A stretch of 57,500 bases of DNA from Bacteroidia bacterium. GTDB taxonomy: Bacteria; Bacteroidota; Bacteroidia; J057. The notes under the pieces are model-generated. The model saw only the letters and a program-made list of their open reading frames with translations, was not told the DNA's origin and ran no database searches. Positions within the stretch are counted from its first letter, which is position 1, and each line of letters begins with the position of its first letter. The stretch covers positions 1-57,500 of the forward strand of contig JAUIGE010000040.1 of NCBI GenBank assembly GCA_030430205.1, in the 5' to 3' direction. Shown piece by piece: positions 5,391 through 49,172 of this stretch. Both the position numbers and the translations under genes were made by a program.

Positions 5391-6392
5391 ATGCCGGTAT
5401 ACGAACTGGAAGCAATTTCAGAATTATTAGACAGCCCTAAAAAGATATCCATTGTGATGCATCAGCGCCCCGATGGCGACGCCATCGGCTCTGCATTGGG
5501 CCTTGCCCATTATTTGAAGCAGTTGGGGCATGAAATCCGCGTGGTCACGCCCACCGACTATCCCGACAACCTCAAATGGTTGCCTGGGACGGAAGAGGTC
5601 ATCATAGGGCCAGAAGGCCCCGCAACCAAAATGATCCAGTCAGCCGATGTGCTGATGTGCCTGGATTTCAATGACTTGCGGCGCATAGAGCCGCTCGATG
5701 ATGCCGCCCGGCAGGTGCCTGCCCGCATCATGATAGACCATCATAGAGACCCTAAAGACGATTTTACCCATACATTTTGGGACGACGAAGCTTCCTCCAC
5801 GGCCGAGATGATCTATCGTCTCATGGACCAAAGAGGTGAATTGAGCCTGCTCAATCAGGAGATAGCTACCTGCCTGTACACAGGTACGGCCACAGATACG
5901 GGTTCTTTCCGCTTCCCGGCGACCAGTTCGGCAGTCTACCGCATGGCGGCAGATTTTTTGGATGCCGGCGCCAGCCCCAGCAAAATACATGAGGCTTTGT
6001 ACAGCAATGATCCCGAAAAACGGCTGCGCCTGCTCGGGCATGCCCTCGCCAATAGATTGGTTGTTTTACCAGAATATCATAGTGCGTATATTAGACTTAA
6101 CAAAGAAGACGTTGAGCAGTTTGATATACAAAGCGGCGATACCGAAGGGCTCGTAAACTATTGTCTCAGCATAAAAGGCATCAATTTTGGCGCATTTATG
6201 ATTGATAAAGACGATATGGTGAAAATGAGTTTTCGCAGCAAAGGCGACTTCTCTGCCCAGCAAGTGGCGCTATTGTTTGATGGTGGAGGCCATTTTCACG
6301 CTTCAGGAGGGCGAAGCAAGGACAGCCTGGTAGAGACCGAGAGGAAGTTGCTTGAGATCATTAGTTCCAAAAAAGAAGAATTGAATTACTGA
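5391..6392 (+). CDS. DHH-family phosphoesterase (NrnA-like)
   Basis: A 333-residue DHH/DHHA1 phosphoesterase of the bifunctional oligoribonuclease/PAP phosphatase (NrnA) type. It degrades 2-5 nt RNA fragments and possibly 3'-phosphoadenosine 5'-phosphate. Metal-binding motifs are complete: 'DGDAIGSA' (Asp28, Asp30), 'CLDFND' near 90-94, DHH at 116-118, and a DHHA1 GGGH at about 298-301. The start chosen gives [13 protein letters not shown]. The stop codon overlaps the start of the FKBP gene (TGATG), so the two are probably translationally coupled. Distinguishing NrnA from cyclic-di-nucleotide phosphodiesterase activity needs biochemistry. Confidence 0.9.
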
Positions 6393-6889
6393 TGAGCATA
6401 CTTTGGAAAACATTAATGGGTAGCATGTTGCTGAGTATGGCCTGCATTGGCAATGACAAGCAACTCACACAAACCGCAGACCAGGTTCAAGCCTCTGAGC
6501 CTATCCCTATGGCTATCGCGCATGAGCCATTTCAAATAGCAGATTCTTTAGCCATCATCAGGCTTGAAGGTGAGGTGAAGTTGTATTTTGTGGAAAAGGG
6601 TGACGGCCCTGTAGCAGACAAAAATGATTTTGTAGAAGTACACTATCATGGCATGCTCTCAGATGGAAAAGTCTTTGATAGCTCTTATGACAGGGCTCAG
6701 ACAGTAGAATTGAGTATGCAAACCCTGATAGATGGCTTGCGGATTGCCTTGATGGAAGTGCCAAAAGGCAGCAAGGTAAAAGTGATAGTGCCCGCCCCTT
6801 TAGCCTATGGTGACAGCACCCCTCCCAACTCCATTATTCCACCCAACGCAGACCTCATCTTCGACGTTGAGGTTTTAGGTATTCGATAA
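6392..6889 (+). CDS. FKBP-type peptidyl-prolyl isomerase lipoprotein
   Basis: A 165-residue lipoprotein with one FKBP domain. The signal ends in 'LLSMAC' (Cys18). A 45-residue linker leads to the FKBP fold: 'VEVHYHGMLSDGKVFDSSYDR', then 'GLRIALMEVPKGSKVKVIV', 'LAYGDSTPPNSIIPPNADL' and 'FDVEVLGI'. It catalyses proline cis-trans isomerisation of envelope proteins. Gliding-associated GldI is also an FKBP lipoprotein in this phylum; this gene could be a relative but is not in a gliding context. It starts by overlap with the DHH gene. Confidence 0.9.
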   Translation: MSILWKTLMGSMLLSMACIGNDKQLTQTADQVQASEPIPMAIAHEPFQIADSLAIIRLEGEVKLYFVEKGDGPVADKNDFVEVHYHGMLSDGKVFDSSYDRAQTVELSMQTLIDGLRIALMEVPKGSKVKVIVPAPLAYGDSTPPNSIIPPNADLIFDVEVLGIR

Positions 6890-6915
6890 AGGATTTTTTA
6901 AAAAGCCGATTCATC

Positions 6916-7671
6916 ATGAAATCATTTATTTTCATTCTCTGTTTGTTGCTCGGATTTTCTAGTACAAGCTGGGGACAGTTGAGCGAAAAAGAAGGAGATT
7001 TGCGTGGATTTGGGATGGGTTTTCACTTGAGCTCGCGGGGTTTGGGTTCTGACTTTCGGTACCTTTACGGTACACCTGGCAGCAACTGGCTTTTCGGCTT
7101 GCGTGCTTATGGGCTAAAATCTGCCCGTGAGACCAAAATTGAATCTCAATTTCAGGATCGCGGCTCCCGCTATGTCTTTGGCAAGCTCAACCGCCTCATG
7201 GTACTTACCCCCTATGCAGGCTTACAACGTGAATGGGTACCCAGACGCGAAGGGGCCTACCTGCGTTTAAGCGGCTCCCTGGAGATCGGGCCAGCACTGG
7301 GTTTGTTACGCCCCTACTACCTTGATATTTTTGTCCCTTCCCCTATTTATCAGCAATTAGGGACACCAGAGCCACAGCCATACAATCCTGACCAACATTC
7401 CTATGTGGACATCGTGGGCGTTTCGAGTGTGTTCAACTCGGGATTTGGCAAAGTCAACCTCCACCCGGGTGTGAGCCTGCGCGCAGCAGCGCTTTTGGAT
7501 TTTGCCCAAAAGGATTCTTACATCAATGGCCTGGAATTAGGCGCCAATCTGGATTTTTTCTTTTCAGATGTCCCCCTGATGGCAAAAGTCAATAACCCAC
7601 GCATGTTCCTGGCTATCACTTTGGGGGCAGTCCTGGGAAATAGCTGGACTACGGCAGAAGTAGAAAAATAA
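6916..7671 (+). CDS. Outer-membrane-like beta protein, unknown function
   Basis: A 251-residue protein with signal peptide MKSFIFILCLLLGFSSTSWG, then alternating hydrophobic and polar strands rich in Gly, Tyr and Arg ('GLGSDFRYLYG', 'LTPYAGLQREWVPRR', 'LRLSGSLEIGPALG'). This is consistent with a small outer-membrane beta-barrel, but I do not recognise a named family. It sits between the FKBP gene (26-base gap) and lipA (30-base gap), in the same orientation, so it may be cotranscribed. Confidence 0.6.
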   Translation: MKSFIFILCLLLGFSSTSWGQLSEKEGDLRGFGMGFHLSSRGLGSDFRYLYGTPGSNWLFGLRAYGLKSARETKIESQFQDRGSRYVFGKLNRLMVLTPYAGLQREWVPRREGAYLRLSGSLEIGPALGLLRPYYLDIFVPSPIYQQLGTPEPQPYNPDQHSYVDIVGVSSVFNSGFGKVNLHPGVSLRAAALLDFAQKDSYINGLELGANLDFFFSDVPLMAKVNNPRMFLAITLGAVLGNSWTTAEVEK

Positions 7672-26809: not shown

Positions 26810-27250
26810 TTATTCGATCACCCTTATTTCAGGTGAAAAAACGCGGTTGCTCTCATGACCAGCCTGGTCTACCATATACAAGCTAAAAATCACTTTTTCG
26901 CTCGCTGAGCCATCTGTAATAATAGTATTGGGCAAAATAATCCGCAAACTACCCGTAATCGGAACACGCTCCCCATTAGGAACAATTTCCTGCACCCGAA
27001 AGCCATGCGTCAGTTGTATGCGATCATCCAGAATAAACAGGTTATTTTCTGTCATGGAGCCCAAATCCCCATCTCCATCCGTATAGCTCACTTCAAAGAC
27101 GATCGAATCACGAAAAGCAATCACCTGCATAGGGCCAACCGAAATCAATTCGATTTCAGGTACAGGAGAAAATATTTCCCCGCCATCCTCTTTACAACTT
27201 GTAAGTCCTAATACTATGAGGATAAAAAATACATAAAAGGCATTCTTCAT
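26810..27250 (-). CDS. Ig-like lipoprotein
   Basis: A 146-residue lipoprotein, the last gene of a five-gene operon. The signal MKNAFYVFFILIVLGLTSC has a canonical lipobox. The rest is a single beta-sandwich-like domain with the acidic turn 'YTDGDGDLGSM', typical of calcium-binding Ig/PKD-type folds, and ends 'NRVFSPEIRVIE'. Role unknown; by context it belongs to the envelope module with the cytochrome-like and DUF1501-like proteins. I chose the ATG at 27250 (residue 8 of the longest frame), directly before the signal. Confidence 0.65.
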   Translation of the reverse strand: MKNAFYVFFILIVLGLTSCKEDGGEIFSPVPEIELISVGPMQVIAFRDSIVFEVSYTDGDGDLGSMTENNLFILDDRIQLTHGFRVQEIVPNGERVPITGSLRIILPNTIITDGSASEKVIFSLYMVDQAGHESNRVFSPEIRVIE

Positions 27251-27291
27251 AACATCAAATTGATTAATCACATATCCAATCTTTAGTCTGA

Positions 27292-27320
27292 CATCCCGTC
27301 ATCCCGCTGTCCCGCCTCCC
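27292..27320. repeat. 8-bp array CATCCCGT/CATCCCGC
   Basis: Three full octamers (CATCCCGT, CATCCCGC, TGTCCCGC) and a decayed fourth. It lies in the 70-base gap between two genes of the five-gene operon, ending at the stop codon of the upstream gene. Confidence 0.6.
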
Positions 27321-28262
27321 CTACTGTACTACAAAAAAAGACATATAAAACTGCCAACCGATCCCCTGATCGGGAGTAGGAAACTCAAAAGTTTCGGTAT
27401 GATCTCCATCTTTTGCCCGGTAGCGCATATAGGTGATGGCATTGGGGGTAAAAGTATTTGTATTGACCACGATCTTCCAATGAAAATCGCCATCGGCCCC
27501 AGGGCCATAGAAGTCTGGAACAATTTTGGGCGTAGCCCTATAGGTTGCCTGGATTTTTCGGGCATTGGAAAAATCAAAAGGATCATCTGAGAAAAGCATT
27601 TCATTGAGCTGTAAATCAGCTGTCTGTGTGCTGTCATCTTCCACCCGCAGCCAGAGTGTCATCTGGTTATTGTTCAGGGTACCAAATGGCGCGAATACAT
27701 CGTCCCGGGTAGTATCTATCCGGTATTCGATAGGTCCAAATTGCAGAAATGCTGCAAGGCCCAGAAATTGTGGCTGGGTGTTGGGCAAAGCCGATACATG
27801 GCCAAACATATCGGGCGCGCCCGCCAGGATCCAATCTTCGATTGCCTTGACCTGACCCGCTGTAAGCGGGTTGTCATAGAGGGGCATGCGCCCCAGGACC
27901 TGATCCTGCGTGGTCACCCGATGGTGAAGCCAGGACTCTGCCACGCTAAAGGGTTTTACCCTCACCTTAAATCGCCCGTCCTGGGTATTTTTTATCACAG
28001 GATGAAAAACCAGGCTTGAATAGCTTGACTGAACTGTCCTGTAATCCGGCTCAAAAGAGCCATCATGACAACCGGGCACAGCACAACTCTGTGAAAAAAT
28101 AAATTTATGTAAGCCCAATAAACTAGCCGAATCCGGCTCAATCAGGGGCATATCCGGTGTGTCTATCTTCACATCAAAAGGATTGGGCGGGGGCCCATCA
28201 TCCTCTGTTTTGCATGCAACAAGTGAAACGATCACGAAAAGGAAGAGAATGTATTTTTTCAT
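27321..28262 (-). CDS. Cytochrome-c-like lipoprotein
   Basis: A 313-residue lipoprotein (signal ending 'VSLVACKTED'). Residues about 50-155 resemble a c-type cytochrome domain of the PSCyt kind: a heme-type 'SCAVPGCHDG' (C60-x4-C65-H66, not the classical CxxCH), later 'GRMPLYDNPLTAGQVKAIED' with candidate ligand Met126, and 'WILAGAPD'. The C-terminal half is beta-rich ('GDFHWKIVVNTNTF'). Whether heme is bound is unproven. It is six bases after the DUF1501-like gene, so the two are surely cotranscribed and probably work together. Confidence 0.7.
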   Translation of the reverse strand: MKKYILFLFVIVSLVACKTEDDGPPPNPFDVKIDTPDMPLIEPDSASLLGLHKFIFSQSCAVPGCHDGSFEPDYRTVQSSYSSLVFHPVIKNTQDGRFKVRVKPFSVAESWLHHRVTTQDQVLGRMPLYDNPLTAGQVKAIEDWILAGAPDMFGHVSALPNTQPQFLGLAAFLQFGPIEYRIDTTRDDVFAPFGTLNNNQMTLWLRVEDDSTQTADLQLNEMLFSDDPFDFSNARKIQATYRATPKIVPDFYGPGADGDFHWKIVVNTNTFTPNAITYMRYRAKDGDHTETFEFPTPDQGIGWQFYMSFFVVQ

Positions 28263-28268
28263 TTTATT

Positions 28269-29573
28269 TTATTCAAAAGCTTCCATCAGCACTCTACCCG
28301 GCAATCTGCCATTGGGTATATCTACATCAAATCCCAGCGCATAAGCGATGGTGGGGACGATATCAATGCTTTCGCCTTTGGGATTAGAAGGCGTCCCGAC
28401 GACCTGGTTTTTCTTCACCAGGCCTGACGGCCCCAGGATCATCGCGAATATTTCGCGGGAAGTCGCATCGCCCGTATGATCGAGCGCGAAGCGCCCATAG
28501 ATATCCTGGACCGTATTGGGTTCCTTGTTGCGCCCATGCTCCGGTACAATCACCAAAAGGGTGTCGTCGGCCATCCCGGGTGTATTTTGGATGGTATGCC
28601 AAAGGTGTGCAACAGCATAGTCTGCTTTCCGCAGATTATTGCAATATTCCGTGAAATTTTGGTGGCAGATGTCAACATCTGTCATATTCACCGTCAGCAA
28701 TTCCGGCTTAAACTCCCTGATGATTTCCTCTGCAAACAACATGGTGTAGATGTCATTGTTGGCGTGGATGCCCGACACCCCCAGGGGATTGTTATAAGCG
28801 CCACTGTTGCCTTTTTCCATCAAAGACTGGATAAAATCCTGAATCAGTTTCGTTTCAGAATCAGTATTGCTGATGCCAAAACCTTGATTTACAGCTTGTT
28901 TTCCAAAACTTTGGTCCAGAAAGTTGCGGACATGGTTGAGGCGTTCTTCTTCGTGAAACTGAAATTGTTTGGGGTTGCTGATCGCAGGGTATAGACTCGG
29001 ATTGAGCAGCACCGTCGGGGCAATGTGATTTGCACCGTATTTGGCGCCATAGCCGGGATCCTGGCTGTAATTCAACGCTGGATAGGGCCCCAAAGAATTG
29101 GAGACCCACCAGGCGTTTTTGGCTGTTTGGGCAGGAGAATTATGTTTGAGGTAATACTCGAATACCGTTGGGAATTGCGGATTTTGGCGAAGGTTGAGCC
29201 CCGTATCTGTGTAGCGCCCTGTCACGGCCACCGTGTGGCCGTTGAAATGGCCCGTAGGGCCTTCCCTATATCTCAACTCAGGAAAGAGGGTGCCCTCTTT
29301 TGCCAGCTTCTGAAACCAGGGAGAGGCCGGAATGGGGTCCAGGCCCGGCATTGCCGATGAAGTCCCTTCAAAAGAAGCTGGCATCAGGTTGCCTTCCGCT
29401 TGCTGGATGGCTTCGATATTGCGGATACCGCCCGCAAAAAGGCAAAATACCACATGCCCTACCCGCCTGCTGCCTGTCCTGGCAAATAAACGCCCACCGG
29501 GCAGGATAAATGGCGCTGCAACGCTAGATGCCGCCAAAGCGGCTGTCTGTTTGAGAAAAGTTCTTCTTTTCAT
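28269..29573 (-). CDS. Tat-exported DUF1501/alkaline-phosphatase-superfamily-like protein
   Basis: A 434-residue protein with a twin-arginine signal (MKRRTFLKQTAALAASSVAA). The body follows the order of DUF1501 proteins of the alkaline phosphatase superfamily: 'CLFAGGIRNIEAI' (GG near the first metal site), 'GPTGHFNGHTVAVTGRYTD', 'VNMTDVDICHQNFTEY', 'VPEHGRNKEPN', 'FALDHTGDATSREIFAMI' and 'IDIVPTIAYALGFDV'. Catalysis is not established for DUF1501. Tat export implies cofactor or metal loading before export. It lies between two genes with six-base gaps on both sides. Confidence 0.75.
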   Translation of the reverse strand: MKRRTFLKQTAALAASSVAAPFILPGGRLFARTGSRRVGHVVFCLFAGGIRNIEAIQQAEGNLMPASFEGTSSAMPGLDPIPASPWFQKLAKEGTLFPELRYREGPTGHFNGHTVAVTGRYTDTGLNLRQNPQFPTVFEYYLKHNSPAQTAKNAWWVSNSLGPYPALNYSQDPGYGAKYGANHIAPTVLLNPSLYPAISNPKQFQFHEEERLNHVRNFLDQSFGKQAVNQGFGISNTDSETKLIQDFIQSLMEKGNSGAYNNPLGVSGIHANNDIYTMLFAEEIIREFKPELLTVNMTDVDICHQNFTEYCNNLRKADYAVAHLWHTIQNTPGMADDTLLVIVPEHGRNKEPNTVQDIYGRFALDHTGDATSREIFAMILGPSGLVKKNQVVGTPSNPKGESIDIVPTIAYALGFDVDIPNGRLPGRVLMEAFE

Positions 29574-29579
29574 AGAAAT

Positions 29580-30104
29580 CTAAAAATATCTATACTCATC
29601 AGAAGTCAGAAAGGCATAATAAATGATCTCAGGGGTGATATCCGGATCATTTGCAATCAGGTTTTCAAAAAACCAAAGTTCGTACTCACCGGGTTCCCGC
29701 ACATAAAAACGACGGTAAGTCGCTTGGATAAAAGCAGGTACATCTGCTCTCATTTGCTGTGCTGAAGGCACATCTGCGCCCGGATTGTTGAGGAAGTTGC
29801 GGATAATCACATCCGCGATCAGGCCTTTATCCCCCACAGCATTATAACCCGTCACCAGAACCAATAATTGGTTTTCTGTAAGGGTAGTTCCAAATAAATC
29901 TGAATAGGCCAGTGATATAAATTCAAGATCGCTTTTTAGCGTATTTTTGTTTACCCCTGCCTGGGTGACTTCCACTTCATTTACTTCATACAGATAGACT
30001 TGCTCCGTTTTAGAACAGGAAAACAAGAAACTAAAGAGAATGATGATGAGGGGAAAATAAAGAAGCCTGGCGATGGAAAAATGGATGTTTTGATGGAAAT
30101 ACAT
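29580..30104 (-). CDS. Lipoprotein with GRxP-type helical repeats (short)
   Basis: A 174-residue lipoprotein (signal ending 'FSFLFSCSKTEQ'). After a linker it has two copies of a helical module: 'FISLAYSDLFGTTLTENQL' and 'FIQATYRRFYVREPGEYEL' followed by 'IIYYAFLTSDEY'. The module resembles the one in the gene just upstream (30147-31016) and the C-terminal part of PSD1/DUF1553 or DUF4214-type proteins. Function is unknown. The 6-base gap to the Tat protein indicates tight coupling. Confidence 0.65.
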   Translation of the reverse strand: MYFHQNIHFSIARLLYFPLIIILFSFLFSCSKTEQVYLYEVNEVEVTQAGVNKNTLKSDLEFISLAYSDLFGTTLTENQLLVLVTGYNAVGDKGLIADVIIRNFLNNPGADVPSAQQMRADVPAFIQATYRRFYVREPGEYELWFFENLIANDPDITPEIIYYAFLTSDEYRYF

Positions 30105-30146
30105 ACCGTATTGGATTTAAAATTAAACAGGAAATCGGGGATATCA

Positions 30147-31016
30147 TCAAATTCCCAGGACTTCATCTTTACTCAGAATGGTTTTGAGCATCTCTCCATA
30201 ATCATCATTTTGCTTGTAGACGAGCACAGCCTCGACCATTTCGGTCGATACAGGTTCACGCAGCAAAAAATCATTGTACACATCAATGACCTGACCCTCA
30301 TAGTAATCTGTAGAGGAAAAAAATATTTCGAGGAAATCAGCTTTGGAATTGCCCTCTTTCCCAAACAAAATCCCCCCAAATCCATCTACGATAGTGATAG
30401 CGGTTTCTTCTTCCGAAGCAGTAGGATATCTTCCCAAAAAATATTCAAAAAGGGAAAGCACAAAGTTTTGGGAGCCCATATTGATTTCATCATAGAAGTA
30501 GTTGAATGCCATTCTCCGATGCATTTCCATGCGTCCTATCCTACCCGCCAGCAAATCCGCCGGGAGGCGCTTGAGCAAAACCAATTTGTTTAATTCCTGC
30601 TCAATCAAGGGCAGGAAAGGCTCATATTGCGGGTCCTTTTTCGCTTCGTTAAAAATATATATCTGGAAGCTGATATCCGCCGTGTCCAAATTGGCGAGCA
30701 TTTCCGCACGCCCGATGTCATACATGCGTTGAATGAATCCAGGGAATTGAAAAATCAATTCCAGCACCTCTTCGCGATCACTGACAGCCGCATTATCGCG
30801 GCCGAGGATAGCAAGCGCTTGCTGCAACTCCTGCTCGTTGGGCTTTCGCCCCAAAAGGCCGATATACAGTTTGTTGACATAGCTTTCCTGCAGAACCAGG
30901 GGAACTGTCTCGTCAGGCACCACATCGTTGTCGGGAATGCGGATGATCTCTGCCTCTGGCTGGCAGGCAGTGACGATCAGGATGAGAATCAGGAAGAAAG
31001 GTAGCGTGCTTCGCAT
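30147..31016 (-). CDS. Lipoprotein with GRxP-type helical repeats (long)
   Basis: A 289-residue lipoprotein (signal ending 'LILIVTACQPEAE'), first gene of the five-gene operon. Three related helical modules are visible: 'YVNKLYIGLLGRKPNEQEL' (about 48-66), 'FVLSLFEYFLGRYPTASEE' (about 183-201) and 'VIDVYNDFLLREPVSTEM' (about 242-259). Each continues into a segment ending in a phenylalanine-rich or Ser-Xaa-Asp/Glu helix. This recalls the 'LGRxP' helices of DUF1553/PSD1 and DUF4214. I do not recognise a named family over the full length. Confidence 0.7.
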   Translation of the reverse strand: MRSTLPFFLILILIVTACQPEAEIIRIPDNDVVPDETVPLVLQESYVNKLYIGLLGRKPNEQELQQALAILGRDNAAVSDREEVLELIFQFPGFIQRMYDIGRAEMLANLDTADISFQIYIFNEAKKDPQYEPFLPLIEQELNKLVLLKRLPADLLAGRIGRMEMHRRMAFNYFYDEINMGSQNFVLSLFEYFLGRYPTASEEETAITIVDGFGGILFGKEGNSKADFLEIFFSSTDYYEGQVIDVYNDFLLREPVSTEMVEAVLVYKQNDDYGEMLKTILSKDEVLGI

Positions 31017-44865: not shown

Positions 44866-44897
44866 CCGTCGGCTGCCATGCAGTCGGCGGTTTTTTT
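44866..44897 (+). terminator. Intrinsic terminator after the SHOCT gene
   Basis: An 11-bp stem (44866-44876 with 44880-44890, two wobble pairs), CAT loop, then seven T. It overlaps the end of the convergent TMTC-like gene by two bases. Confidence 0.85.
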
Positions 44898-46698
44898 ATG
44901 GCACCGGATACCCAAACTGCCGCGCAAGGCGTGCATTTTCCTGGGCTTTTGCCTCATCTCCCTGCCGCTGATAGAGGCGCGAGCGGATAAAATAAAACAT
45001 TCCCTGACGGCCATTCAGCTGAATAGCCCGGTTGATGTTTTCCATTGAGGCCTGATTCTCTCCCAGGCTGTATTGGCAGGAAGCCATATTTCCATATCCA
45101 ATCGCAAAATTGGGATTGATTTTCACCGCCTGCTGAAACTCATAGAGTGCTTTGCGAATTTCATTTCGCTTCATAAAAATGTCTCCTCTATTATTATAAG
45201 CCATATAATCTGGCCTGATACTCAGCACTTTGTCATAATCTGCCAGGGCTTTGTCCTGCAATTCTCGCTTGCGTGCTGTATTTTCTTCGCCGCTGAGGCG
45301 GTTGGCGAGGTCAGCCCGGTAGTGGCCGCGGCTCACATAAGGCCTTGCGGCATGAGGATATTTGGCGATGACATCGCTGAAGAGGATTTCTGTATTTTCC
45401 CATACTTTCACCCGCTGAAAAGTTGCAAAGGAGCTACTCAGCGCCAAAAGCCCCAGGAGGCCGAAGACAGCGTAGGTGAGCGCTTTATTCTCTTTATTTT
45501 GCTCCCATACATACTGAACCAAAAGCCCCAACAACAATAAAATGCCAATATAGGGCACATAGGTATAGCGCTCTGCAATGACCACATCGCCTACAGCGAT
45601 GATCTGAAGCACCAGTCCAATATTTAGCAGGTAAAACAAAGCACCAAACAAGCCTGTTCGCCCAAATTTCTTTGACCAGATCGCCAAAGCGCCTATTCCC
45701 AGAGCTATCAGCGGCGCAATTTTGTACATCAGGGGAAAGCCATTTTCAGGATAGGCATGGTAAGCGGCCTGTTTTATCGGCACAAATAGCATGGCGATAT
45801 AGGTCACAAAGCCATAGGAAGCGACCATGATTTTGTCAAGGAAAGTATTGGTGTGGGTGGTCAGCGCCCCCGCGTCCTTCTGTATTTCCATCGTCGCCAG
45901 GCCCAGCGCTATCGCTCCTATGAAAAAGGGCACTTTTTCCAAAAGCGCTTTCGCATCAAAAGGACGTTTTTTGTACCAATCAATCAACAAAAGCACTACG
46001 GGAAGTACCACGGCTGCGGGCTTGGATAAAAGCGATAAGCTGAAAAACACAAGCAAGAGGACATAGAGGCCCAGTTTGCGCGTTTCGAGATACCGAAGGT
46101 AGCCGATGAGTGTCAGCATAAAGAAAAAAGTGTACAACACATCTTTTCGCTCTGCGACCCAGGCTACGGACTCCACATGCATGGGATGTATGGCAAAAAA
46201 GAAAGCTGTGAACAGCGCAGCCAGCCATTTTTTATCAAAAAGCAGAAAGACAAAAAAGAAAACCAATAAGGTATTGAGTAGGTGAAAAAGCAGATTTGTC
46301 CCAAAATAAACAGGGAAATCAGTCTCTGCCATGGCGTAATTCACCGCCATACTCAGGACAGTAATCGGGTGATAATTGCCTGCAACTTCGGAGGTTTTTC
46401 CTTTGAAAATCTCGTTGAGATGGGGACCGTCTAATGCTCTGATAGAGAGGTTGTTGATGACGTAGACGTCGTCATCCCAATTGGTAAACTCATGGCTAAA
46501 GCCATGGCTATAGACCAGGGCGGTGAGCAGCAGGATCACCGCCAAGGCAATCCATATCCTGCGATCCGTTTTCAGCCATTCACCTAAGCTGGAGTAGCTC
46601 AGCGAAGGTGCAGGAGAGCTTTTCCGCTGTTGTTTTTTCTTCGGGGCGCTGGTTCGTTTTTTACCAGCATAGCGAGATGAGGGTACTTTTTTTGCCAT
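44896..46698 (-). CDS. TMTC/GT105-like membrane glycosyltransferase with TPRs
   Basis: A 600-residue polytopic membrane protein of the GT-C superfamily, similar in design to TMTC O-mannosyltransferases. The basic N-terminus is followed by about 11 transmembrane helices. The conserved first loop 'FTNWDDDVYVINN' has the acidic catalytic-type pair, and 'FAIHPMHVESVAWVAERKDVL' is a strong family signature. The C-terminal ~130 residues contain TPR helices ('DYMAYNNRGDIFMKRNEIR', 'NFAIGYGNMASCQYSLGEN'). Probably transfers a sugar from a lipid carrier to exported proteins; substrate unknown. It has a close paralogue at 47211. Confidence 0.85.
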   Translation of the reverse strand: MAKKVPSSRYAGKKRTSAPKKKQQRKSSPAPSLSYSSLGEWLKTDRRIWIALAVILLLTALVYSHGFSHEFTNWDDDVYVINNLSIRALDGPHLNEIFKGKTSEVAGNYHPITVLSMAVNYAMAETDFPVYFGTNLLFHLLNTLLVFFFVFLLFDKKWLAALFTAFFFAIHPMHVESVAWVAERKDVLYTFFFMLTLIGYLRYLETRKLGLYVLLLVFFSLSLLSKPAAVVLPVVLLLIDWYKKRPFDAKALLEKVPFFIGAIALGLATMEIQKDAGALTTHTNTFLDKIMVASYGFVTYIAMLFVPIKQAAYHAYPENGFPLMYKIAPLIALGIGALAIWSKKFGRTGLFGALFYLLNIGLVLQIIAVGDVVIAERYTYVPYIGILLLLGLLVQYVWEQNKENKALTYAVFGLLGLLALSSSFATFQRVKVWENTEILFSDVIAKYPHAARPYVSRGHYRADLANRLSGEENTARKRELQDKALADYDKVLSIRPDYMAYNNRGDIFMKRNEIRKALYEFQQAVKINPNFAIGYGNMASCQYSLGENQASMENINRAIQLNGRQGMFYFIRSRLYQRQGDEAKAQENARLARQFGYPVP

Positions 46699-46706
46699 TT
46701 CTTTCC

Positions 46707-47114
46707 TTAACTGCTTCTTCCTACAATTTTTGATAGACCTGCTTTGAGTGCATTTTGGTGTATAATTAACAAAGAAACACATGCCAGCAAAGTAATGAGG
46801 GCCATCACAAACAAACCTCCTCCATCTCCCTGGACTTCGATACCCAAAACTGTAAGATGAGCACTCAGGGCCCCAAACATCAATCCCGTCCCGATCACAG
46901 CGCCCAACCAAACTGTGCTGGGCAGCACAAGGAGAATAGCTGTAATCAGCTCCAAAACACCCAGGGCAATGCGTCCCCAGGGTTCAACGCCGAGCGTAGA
47001 AAAAATATGAATCGCTTCCGGCTTACCGCCAAACTTGAAGTAAAGCGTTTGCAGGAGGATCAAGGCAGCTACGATGCGCAAAATCCAGCTAATGATGGGT
47101 AAATACTTTTTCAT
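46707..47114 (-). CDS. DoxX-family membrane protein
   Basis: A 135-residue protein with four transmembrane helices, starting 'KKYLPIISWILRIVAALILL' and with 'LYFKFGGKPEAIHIFSTLG', 'GRIALGVLELITAILLVLP' and 'GLFVMALITLLACVSLLII'. This matches the DoxX family (some are thiosulfate:quinone oxidoreductase subunits or poorly known). The gene lies eight bases upstream of the minus-strand glycosyltransferase gene, so they are probably one transcript. Confidence 0.85.
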   Translation of the reverse strand: MKKYLPIISWILRIVAALILLQTLYFKFGGKPEAIHIFSTLGVEPWGRIALGVLELITAILLVLPSTVWLGAVIGTGLMFGALSAHLTVLGIEVQGDGGGLFVMALITLLACVSLLIIHQNALKAGLSKIVGRSS

Positions 47115-47210
47115 GAGATGGTATTGTAGTGGATAGCTAAATAAACAAATTTTTTAGCTAATCTCTCAATATGTTAACTTACTTCCCAATTCAGCATCTC
47201 TCCAATATTC

Positions 47211-49172
47211 ATGGCAAAACGAAAAGCAGCTCAGCAAAAAGATTCGGCAAGCCGAAGGACAAAAAAAAGCACCCGCACAGCAAAAAAGGTACGCTCCAGC
47301 CAAAGGGGCCCTTCTTCTGATTTGACGGGTGGGCTTGCAAAGCGCAACAAACTGATTTTGGGAGGTATCCTCCTGCTGACATTATTGACATTTCTTCCCC
47401 TTTTCCAAAATGAATTCACCAATTGGGATGACAATGTATATGTCACAGAAAATACGATGATCACCAGCCTCAGTGGGGAGAATATTCAGCGGATGTTTAC
47501 GGAAAAAGTTTCTTCCAACCACCATCCGCTGACCATGCTGGTCTATGCCATCAATTACCAGATTTCAGGCTTGAAGCCCTGGTCGTATACCCTGTTTCAA
47601 ATCCTTTTTCATTTATTGAATACCTTTTTGGTATTTGTTGTGATCAGGCGCCTGGCGGGAGGGAAAGAAGAGGTTGCCCTCTTTGTGAGCCTGTTTTTTG
47701 GGATCCATCCCATGCATGTAGAATCTGTGGCCTGGCTGTCCGAGCATAAAGATGTGCTTTATACCTTCTTTTTGCTGCTTTCGGTAAATGAATACCTGAA
47801 GTATGTGGAAGGTGGCGGATGGGAAAAAATAAAAGAAGGCAACTGGAAATGGCTTGCCCTCGGCTTGCTCTATTTTTGGCTTTCGCTCAACTCCAAGTCT
47901 GCTGCTGTCGCTATGCCTGTAGGCTTATTTGCCATTGATTATTGGCTGAGGCGACCGATGAAAGCGGGTATTTTTATCGAAAAAGTCCCCTTTCTTGCCC
48001 TTTCCGTCGTCTATGGAATCATCGCGCTGCGGACACAGGCTGATGCCATCAATGAGAGTTACAGCTTTTTACAAAAGATCAACTATGCCTCCTATGGCTT
48101 CAGCATGTACTTTGCCAAGCTATTTGTGCCGATCAATCTGGCCTCTTTTATCCCCTACCCTCCCACGGGAGAGCCCGAACCCGGCTACCTCCAAATCATG
48201 CCGCTGATCGCCCTGGCGATCGTGGGCCTGACCGCCTTCTCGATGCGCAAAACGCGCCTTTTCGCCTTTGGCGTGGCATTTTTTGCGATCATGATTTCCC
48301 TGACTTTACAAGTCGTGGCGGTAGGTGGCCAGATCATGGCCGAACGCTATACCTATGTCCCTTACATCGGTCTTTTCTTCATTTTGGGCTATGGGCTGTA
48401 CCAAATGGGGCAACATCCCCAATGGAAAAAGTACCATCAGATGGCCATTTACGCCACAGCGGCGATCGCGCTGCTTTTTGCTTTTATGTCCTTTCAACGG
48501 ACAAAAGTCTGGAAAGACAGCCGTAGCCTTTGGTCGGATGTGATCGACAAGCACCCGAACTGTGGTCGGGCGTGGCTGATGCGGGGCGTTTTGCTCTATG
48601 ACGAAAATGACGATGTAGCGGCGCTTGACCATTTCAACAAAGCGGTAAAATACCGCTCAACTATGGCTTTTTGCTACTACAATCGCGGATTGGTACTCAA
48701 TCGCAGCAAGCGATATGATGAAGCCATCGCAGATTTTGACGTGGCCATAGCGAAGAAAAACAACTATTTCGAAGCATATCACCACCGTGGCAATGCAAAA
48801 TACTATCAGGGGAAATTCGATGAAGCCCTCGAAAATTACAACCAGGCACTTTCCTATAATTCCAACTTCGCCAAGTCATATACCAACCGCGGCCTGGTCT
48901 ACTACCAAAAACAGCAGTACGAAAAAGCCGCTTCGGATCTGGAACGTTCCATCCAGCTGGAAGCGCCAAATTCCCTCACCTATAACAACTTAGGTGCCTC
49001 TTACGCAGCGCTCGGCCAAAATCAAAAGGCCATTGACACCTATACTAAAGCCATCCAAATCAATCCCAATGATGCCAATGCCTACGGCAATCGTGCGATC
49101 ATGTATCGCCAGTTGGGGCAGGAGGATAAGGCCAGGCAGGATGAGGCGGAGGTGAGGGGATTGAGGAGATAG
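47211..49172 (+). CDS. TMTC/GT105-like membrane glycosyltransferase with TPRs
   Basis: A 653-residue paralogue of the product at 44896-46698. The same order is seen: basic N-terminus, first-loop 'FTNWDDNVYVTENTM', 'FGIHPMHVESVAWLSEHKDVL', about 11 helices, then a longer C-terminal TPR array of about six units ('NYFEAYHHRGNAKYYQGKF', 'NFAKSYTNRGLVYYQKQQY', 'NSLTYNNLGASYAALGQ', 'NDANAYGNRAIMYRQLGQ'). The more extended TPR region could select acceptor proteins. It is divergent from the DoxX gene. Confidence 0.85.
   Translation: MAKRKAAQQKDSASRRTKKSTRTAKKVRSSQRGPSSDLTGGLAKRNKLILGGILLLTLLTFLPLFQNEFTNWDDNVYVTENTMITSLSGENIQRMFTEKVSSNHHPLTMLVYAINYQISGLKPWSYTLFQILFHLLNTFLVFVVIRRLAGGKEEVALFVSLFFGIHPMHVESVAWLSEHKDVLYTFFLLLSVNEYLKYVEGGGWEKIKEGNWKWLALGLLYFWLSLNSKSAAVAMPVGLFAIDYWLRRPMKAGIFIEKVPFLALSVVYGIIALRTQADAINESYSFLQKINYASYGFSMYFAKLFVPINLASFIPYPPTGEPEPGYLQIMPLIALAIVGLTAFSMRKTRLFAFGVAFFAIMISLTLQVVAVGGQIMAERYTYVPYIGLFFILGYGLYQMGQHPQWKKYHQMAIYATAAIALLFAFMSFQRTKVWKDSRSLWSDVIDKHPNCGRAWLMRGVLLYDENDDVAALDHFNKAVKYRSTMAFCYYNRGLVLNRSKRYDEAIADFDVAIAKKNNYFEAYHHRGNAKYYQGKFDEALENYNQALSYNSNFAKSYTNRGLVYYQKQQYEKAASDLERSIQLEAPNSLTYNNLGASYAALGQNQKAIDTYTKAIQINPNDANAYGNRAIMYRQLGQEDKARQDEAEVRGLRR

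Follow-up and report, generated by a model that had tools for sequence, protein, structure and literature searches.

What kind of system is encoded by five adjacent, co-directional genes of a Bacteroidia bacterium, four of them for lipoproteins and one for a protein with a twin-arginine translocation (Tat) signal? The genes lie on the minus strand, from 31016 to 26810, in the first 57,500 nucleotides of contig JAUIGE010000040.1; this whole stretch is called the window, and all position numbers refer to it. They were delimited from the list of open reading frames (ORFs) and the sequence and are labelled A-B-C-D-E in transcription order. A sequence-only reading had given the gaps A-B, B-C, C-D, and D-E as 42, 6, 6, and 70 bases, which is exact, and had seen in the cassette a split PSCyt/PSD1/DUF1501 module. 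This interpretation is well founded for C, a divergent relative of DUF1501 with a modelled alkaline-phosphatase fold, and for D, which has a cytochrome c domain similar to PSCyt1; for A and B the resemblance is weaker and local only. The cassette order is kept in many Bacteroidia, and the chances are about even that the five products form one envelope complex with C as its functional core, which would be a third, split architecture of DUF1501 systems.

Conservation of the gene order, on which the sequence-only reading had staked its proposal, was followed in two sets of genomes. In the named-genome set (the best 80 of 397 relatives), 56 loci have room on both sides, and all five genes were found in order in 53 of them in a six-frame check (50/56 by gene calling), so the cassette is not a chance arrangement. 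The exceptions are L099 and L119 with C only and L122 with C and D only. Median gaps across loci are −1, 9, 5.5, and 3 bases. From the related-genome set of 60 genomes, 20 stretches were fetched and compared by gene calls and BLAST; loci of the two sets overlap (e.g., L031 and L051 are on the same contig), and their counts are not independent. The A-B-C-D-E order is kept in these stretches as far as the contig extends, except in L034 (B and C present, no D or E called), L048 (no E called), and L043. The last one (6127–7224, G022:C58) has a lone C with about 80 internal residues missing and no A, B, D, or E; it is possibly a decaying or repurposed copy. The cassette was found in differing flanking contexts. 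Protein C of either type (see below) was detected at E < 1e-50 in 22 of the 60 related genomes and at E 0.001 in 28, the six extra ones being weak partial matches. In a draw from the class, 39/149 genomes have C at 1e-30, and in a draw from the phylum, limited to genomes of 90% completeness or more, only 2/198 have it at 1e-40; no more than 8 candidates were scored in each genome there, and some may have been missed. Phaeocystidibacter luteus LMG 25704 (L116) is a named cultured carrier.

The AlphaFold model of protein C has a mean predicted local distance difference test (pLDDT) score of 86.2. Phosphatase PafA was recognized as the best structural match (VIA Z 28.2, root-mean-square deviation 3.3 over 301 residues), and all 50 matches listed are enzymes of the alkaline-phosphatase superfamily, sulfatases included, so that C, according to its model, has an alkaline-phosphatase fold. 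No solved relative of C was found by sequence. Against DUF1501 (PF07394), C of the window scored 17.1 bits (E 0.0032), below the gathering score of 27 bits, and only 3 of 18 C proteins matched this family at E up to 1, while 20/20 canonical neighbours did, the best at 1e-163. When 18 C proteins were aligned jointly with 12 DUF1501 proteins encoded beside PSCyt2 genes and eight beside DUF1800 genes, residues G48, H109, W155, D301, H304, E345, G347, R348, D365, and H366 were identical in 38/38 sequences. This set of ten positions was defined in the present analysis and is not a published DUF1501 signature; an alignment of the 20 canonical proteins alone likewise keeps H, W, D, H, E, G, R, D, and H invariant. 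Among 75 C proteins the counted residues are invariant with the exception of H346 (His in 70, Ile in five), a position occupied by Cys in the six type-2 sequences of the joint alignment. The profile of C matched that of the DUF1501 proteins with PSD partners at 85% (E 6e-6, 360 columns; reversed control 0.09%). With the set of DUF1800 partners, a local match of 57.7% was limited to the 20-column signal peptide; the H-x9-G spacing, which holds in C and in the PSD-partner set, is found in 3/8 of the DUF1800-partner set, and Arg51 of C is at the position of the GGxD aspartate of that group. Because of the fold and the shared residues, C is regarded as a divergent DUF1501 relative despite failing the Pfam cut-off. 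The claim of a Tat-exported DUF1501-like protein was thus borne out by these two lines, with export predicted from the N-terminus MKRRTFLK, a twin-arginine signal that TAT models match only below their cut-offs.

Two profile alignments of C with nucleotide pyrophosphatase/phosphodiesterase (NPP) proteins of related genomes were obtained, both weak (3% and 14%). They put D301 and E345-H346 on metal-site motifs. H109 is on the catalytic Thr in the 3% alignment alone, and the 14% alignment does not align that stretch so. The catalytic and metal-ligand roles are those of the known enzymes; relatives have Thr, Ser, or Cys as the catalytic residue. By this alignment, H109 may act as a nucleophile in C.

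Protein D has a single haem motif, which is CX4CH and not CXXCH, and residues C60, C65, H66, and M126 are invariant in 71/71 D proteins. Its N-terminal part is similar to the PSCyt1 region of the canonical partner proteins (11/11 of which carry PSCyt1, PSCyt2, and PSD1), with a profile probability of 96.8% over 89 columns (E 3e-10; reversed 0.07%). The earlier description as cytochrome-c-like therefore holds through the motif with Met126 and through the PSCyt1-like profile, and the straightforward reading is that D is probably a mono-haem c-type cytochrome. Neither D of the window nor any of 17 D proteins has a Pfam match, and by sequence the only solved relative is the iron oxidase FoxE (E 0.036, not significant).

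Proteins A and B seem to be built of related helical modules. In A there are three related motifs, LGRKP, LGRYP, and LREP, so that the three modules described before are present, the third one being LREP instead of the LGR type; B has two, as had been noticed. The profile of B matches A proteins at several places (92% over 35 columns for the A-B match). The AF2 model of A is very confident (mean pLDDT 94.9). Structural matches 1–34 are all phycobilisome chains with Z from 11.2 (117 residues) to 7.3, and the next one, unrelated, has 5.5; helical folds can reach such Z by chance, as the comparison tool warns, and Foldseek itself gave no match to the A model at E 0.001. Searching with a sequence profile of A likewise gives phycobilisome linkers, the best at E 0.00045. 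Matches of A to protein A (E 0.002 to 0.7), with E values near those of the phycobilisome proteins, were read as chance helical matches and rejected. Among 17 A proteins scanned at E up to 1, 14 matched DUF4214 (best 3e-7), seven DUF1549/PSCyt2 (best 0.0018), four DUF1553/PSD1 (best 0.023), three the phycobilisome linker family PF00427 (best 0.00043), and one DUF1800 (0.041; not A of the window). The proposed similarity to DUF4214 or DUF1553 was thus found. In A of the window, DUF4214 was the only match (21.5 bits, sub-threshold at the cut-off of 23.2); PF00427 was not matched, nor were PSCyt2 and PSD1 together on one chain.

Profile similarities of A and B to the canonical partners were compared with 100 column-shuffles, using two profiles of A, A2 (with type-2 members) and A5. 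Against the PSCyt1-PSCyt2-PSD1 proteins, A2 scored 40.2 (null maximum 24.9, 0/100 shuffles) over only 55 columns at the start of DUF1549, and against DUF1800 proteins 36.6 (null maximum 25.9, 0/100) over only about 105 columns. Scores of A5 were 28.1 (1/100) and 41.1 (0/100), respectively. B was similar to PSD over only 33 columns (0/100) and not to DUF1800, where its score was reached by 11/100 shuffles; among solved structures, its sequence finds designed proteins and ApcE only, none of them better than 0.027. The local similarity of A2 and A5 to both DUF1549 and DUF1800 is suggestive of a helical module that DUF1501 partners may share. As stand-ins for DUF1553, A and B are weaker candidates, since the best fold match of the modelled A is a phycobilisome linker.

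For protein E, described as Ig-like in the sequence-only reading, neither a Pfam match (E up to 1) nor a solved relative by sequence was found to bear this out. Its length in Table 1 is counted from ATG, and an alternative in-frame GTG is at 27271. A short hydrophobic signal followed by cysteine is present in A, B, D, and E. In surface lipoproteins of Bacteroidota, a motif of K-(D/E)2 type after the lipidated Cys is described in PMC5080379. By a loose rule, lipoprotein export signal (LES)-like sequences were found in 36/64 A, 24/64 B, 19/63 D, and 39/67 E proteins; with a stricter lipobox and few sequences, the counts are 5/9, 10/13, 3/10, and 5/11, respectively, vs. 4/11 in flanking lipoproteins.

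Table 1. Genes of the cassette and residues of interest in the window (roles of residues are predicted).
Feature	Position	Strand	Basis
Gene A: 289-amino-acid (aa) lipoprotein, three LGRxP-type helical modules, phycobilisome-linker/DUF4214-like fold (modelled)	30147..31016	-	Model pLDDT 94.9, Z 11.2
Gene B: 174-aa lipoprotein, two modules akin to those of A	29580..30104	-	Profile matches
Gene C: 434-aa Tat-signal protein, alkaline-phosphatase superfamily, divergent DUF1501 relative	28269..29573	-	Model and alignment
Gene D: 313-aa lipoprotein, N-terminal PSCyt1-like cytochrome c domain	27321..28262	-	Profile
Gene E: 146-aa lipoprotein, conserved YxDGDGDLG motif	26810..27250	-	ORF and alignment
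C His109, invariant	29247..29249	-	38/38 in joint alignment, 75/75 C proteins
C Asp301 to His304, predicted metal ligands	28662..28673	-	Alignments
C Glu345-His346-Gly347-Arg348, predicted part of metal site	28530..28541	-	Alignments
C Asp365-His366, predicted metal ligand	28476..28481	-	Alignments
D haem-binding motif CX4CH (Cys60, Cys65, His66)	28065..28085	-	71/71
D Met126, predicted axial haem ligand	27885..27887	-	71/71

A second cassette, designated type 2, is present in several genomes including that of the window (L045, G000:C23:272000-287500), and its C is about 40–44% identical to C of type 1, to which the cassette of the window belongs. Trees were built for each of the five families from 16 to 19 sequences, without fragments, and in every one the type-2 proteins are a single clade, with support of 1.0 for A, 0.998 for B, and 1.0 for C, D, and E; with midpoint rooting, type-1 members also form one clade in four of the five families, E excepted. 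The type-2 clades in all five trees indicate that the five genes were duplicated together, or stayed together, through an old split.

Past E, type-2 loci encode a protein of about 1170 aa. In the proteins scanned, the CHU_C type IX signal domain was found in 12/12 and a CUB domain in 10/12, and PKD was found as well; in three loci a PorP/SprF gene is next to the CHU_C gene. Out of 23 type-2 loci examined (L231–L247 among them), 19 extend 5 kb or more beyond C; the CHU_C gene is present in 17 of these, five of which served to build the profile of the protein, and absent behind C in L232 and L244. A small ORF intervenes before it in L247, and in L048 it is present with no E called. A full-length CUB/CHU_C orthologue was found in 11 of 12 type-2 genomes and in none of 48 others (Fisher p 3.5e-11, uncorrected for kinship; at most 11 candidates scored per genome). 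The orthologue is split over two contigs in G012, missing in G011 (86% complete), and on another contig in G009; in G005 it is unlinked, at another place of the genome, and this speaks for a tie to type 2 that is functional and goes beyond linkage. Near type-1 cassettes, that of the window included, no tied CUB/PKD/CHU_C neighbour was found. The profile of the CUB protein is matched in 20/80 type-1 loci, the best at 3.6e-68 vs. 0 to 3e-300 in type 2; with E values far poorer than those of the full-length type-2 neighbours, these were read as shared secretion and PKD domains, and a type-1 tie was rejected.

Elsewhere, the same genome encodes one protein with PSCyt2 and three with DUF1800, which makes the cassette a system additional to the canonical ones. 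In one place (L183, 3819–8722; G000:C23:374500-384500), a DUF1800 gene, a DUF1501 gene, and a gene for a 446-aa lipoprotein follow in a row, the lipoprotein having two CXXCH motifs and a CCP_MauG di-haem domain. A lectin-like Laminin_G_3 domain was identified on 7/11 PSCyt1-PSCyt2-PSD1 proteins of these Bacteroidota (alignment A11, L166–L177). The Por_Secre_tail type IX sorting domain is on 2/20 canonical DUF1501 proteins (alignment A10, L166–L185), and some members of DUF1501 may reach the surface by secretion themselves.

The most likely interpretation of the cassette is an outer-membrane-linked complex serving surface or secreted material, in which C would carry out the phosphoryl or sulfuryl chemistry and D would be a redox or sensing subunit. 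C, exported folded via Tat, would be the functional core, with a predicted metal site of D301, H304, and H366, together with E345. With H109 standing where relatives have a catalytic Thr, Ser, or Cys, C could act on phosphoryl or sulfuryl esters via a phospho- or sulfo-histidine. A and B would be lipid-anchored helical linkers holding C at the membrane, D would supply a c-type haem as an electron carrier or a redox or oxygen sensor, and E may be a small stabilising or calcium-binding subunit. The putative client in type 2 would be the type IX-secreted CUB/PKD protein; type 1 would have a surface or secreted client of its own. Several results weigh against this interpretation. C, as a Tat protein without a lipid anchor, and the four lipoproteins may be in different compartments, and A and C of the window are both below Pfam cut-offs. 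H109 is matched to the catalytic Thr by one alignment of low probability (3%), in which the first Asp of the second metal site has no counterpart in C; H304 misses the known His by one residue, and H366 and its counterpart are not aligned. C can stand apart, as in L099, L119, L122 (with D), G022, and also L245 and L246 (one genus, that of G009, and short contigs), where type-2 C is seen without A, B, D, and E. Finally, the tie with the CUB protein concerns type 2 and not type 1 of the window.

The loss of the second-site Asp and the His at the aligned catalytic Thr, if this weak alignment is right, would also suit a C that is a non-enzymatic member of its fold, in a cassette serving as a scaffold or anchoring platform for surface proteins, with a structural or sensory haem in D. 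The linker fold of A, whose solved relatives are phycobilisome linkers, and the association of type 2 with a protein secreted by the type IX system point the same way. Such a platform is nevertheless unlikely, if worth keeping in mind, because the counted residues are invariant in 75/75 C proteins apart from H346 and common to 20 other DUF1501 proteins, which is more than a scaffold should need. The presence of C alone in some genomes would be expected if there were no complex and the five envelope genes were co-inherited through linkage only; the five-gene block persists, however, in two long-separated paralogues and in different flanking contexts, which makes this the least probable of the explanations.

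Two further possibilities concern the substrate. A primarily redox unit, with D passing electrons from a surface substrate (a carbohydrate or a metal) that C handles or binds, would fit the invariant CX4CH and Met, the PSCyt1-like profile of D, its weak match to FoxE, the DUF1800-DUF1501 pair beside the di-haem lipoprotein in the same genome, and Laminin_G_3 on PSCyt/PSD proteins, for which a role in carbohydrate metabolism is proposed in PMC5615132. Against that, D has one haem motif only, the FoxE match is not significant, and none of the nine recurrent neighbour clusters listed, judged by eye, looks like a cytochrome or oxidase; this possibility is quite improbable. A polysaccharide utilisation locus, e.g., for a sulfated glycan with C as a sulfatase-like enzyme, agrees with the sulfatases among the fold matches of C and with the DUF1501-DUF1800 genes that travel with chitin synthase genes in some bacteria, as stated in PMC5122149. 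With neither Cys nor Ser at the aligned catalytic position of C, and no glycoside hydrolase or SusC/D recognized in the nine clusters listed (by eye, one of them scanned), it is very improbable.

A wider proposal, and an improbable one, would make DUF1501 a distinct alkaline-phosphatase branch, with an invariant His for the usual nucleophile, a linker-fold partner, and often a cytochrome c. In it, the DUF1549-DUF1553, DUF1800, and split A and B partners would share one helical module, and the Bacteroidia version would serve redox-controlled display or modification of type IX-secreted proteins on the surface. In the cassette, the modules are split into five small proteins that are separately expressible and deletable, also in the cultured P. 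luteus LMG 25704. Through the shared histidine and acidic/His residues, DUF1501 proteins at large can be tested directly by mutation, and type 2 supplies a candidate client, the type IX-secreted CUB protein.

Around the cassette, no constant sixth gene was found in type 1: the commonest neighbour, a peptidase M20 gene, is in only 25/80 loci, and the second, a large gene, in 16/80. The M20 gene (L058, 7112–8554, and equivalents) is directly upstream of A in 20/80 type-1 loci. Membership of the cassette in the upstream BamD-RpoZ-CoaBC-DUF4835 cluster was rejected; among the 20 stretches these genes were seen only in L031, from a sister genome, where an opposite-strand gene separates them from the cassette. 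A defence system was rejected, as none of the five proteins was matched by PADLOC (E up to 0.01). Elsewhere in the window (44896–49172), two adjacent, divergently encoded TPR proteins of 671 and 653 aa with a weak mannosyltransferase-like (PMT_2) region are perhaps a duplicated pair.

DUF1549 and DUF1800 are the usual partners of DUF1501. Similarity to the PSCyt1-PSCyt2(DUF1549)-PSD1(DUF1553) system with DUF1501 lies in a Tat-signal DUF1501 protein with the same residues encoded by an adjacent gene (C, between B and D), in the PSCyt1-like domain of D, and in a stretch of A like the start of DUF1549. The cassette differs in the spread of the domains over separate lipoproteins, a single CX4CH in place of CXXCH motifs, the extra subunit E, and A and B (289 and 174 aa) where the canonical system has DUF1549-DUF1553 on proteins of 764–1098 aa. 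DUF1501 of the DUF1800-DUF1501 pairs shares H109, D301, H304, E345, R348, D365, and H366 with C, and the last third of A resembles part of DUF1800; in contrast, the cassette has no DUF1800 domain above the cut-off, and it has Arg51 and lipoprotein partners. Protein A shares its modelled fold and sequence profile with phycobilisome linkers (PF00427) and DUF4214 but is a lipoprotein of a non-photosynthetic operon, below the Pfam cut-offs in the window. C shares the fold of the alkaline-phosphatase superfamily (PafA, NPPs, sulfatases), including the metal-site placement of D301 and E345-H346, and differs in the His at the catalytic position and the missing second-site Asp, as far as the weak alignment tells. 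Type IX substrates with CHU_C and PorP/SprF are tied to type 2, and no such tie was found for type 1 of the window. PMC5615132 and PMC4452313 describe PSCyt genes and DUF1501 as having no known function. Searches found no literature pairing DUF1501 with DUF1553, or joining the CUB domain, type IX secretion, and Bacteroidetes; subscription papers were outside these searches, and an earlier description is possible. The cassette would represent a third, split, and lipoprotein-based architecture of DUF1501 systems, a kind of system widespread in bacteria and here newly arranged.

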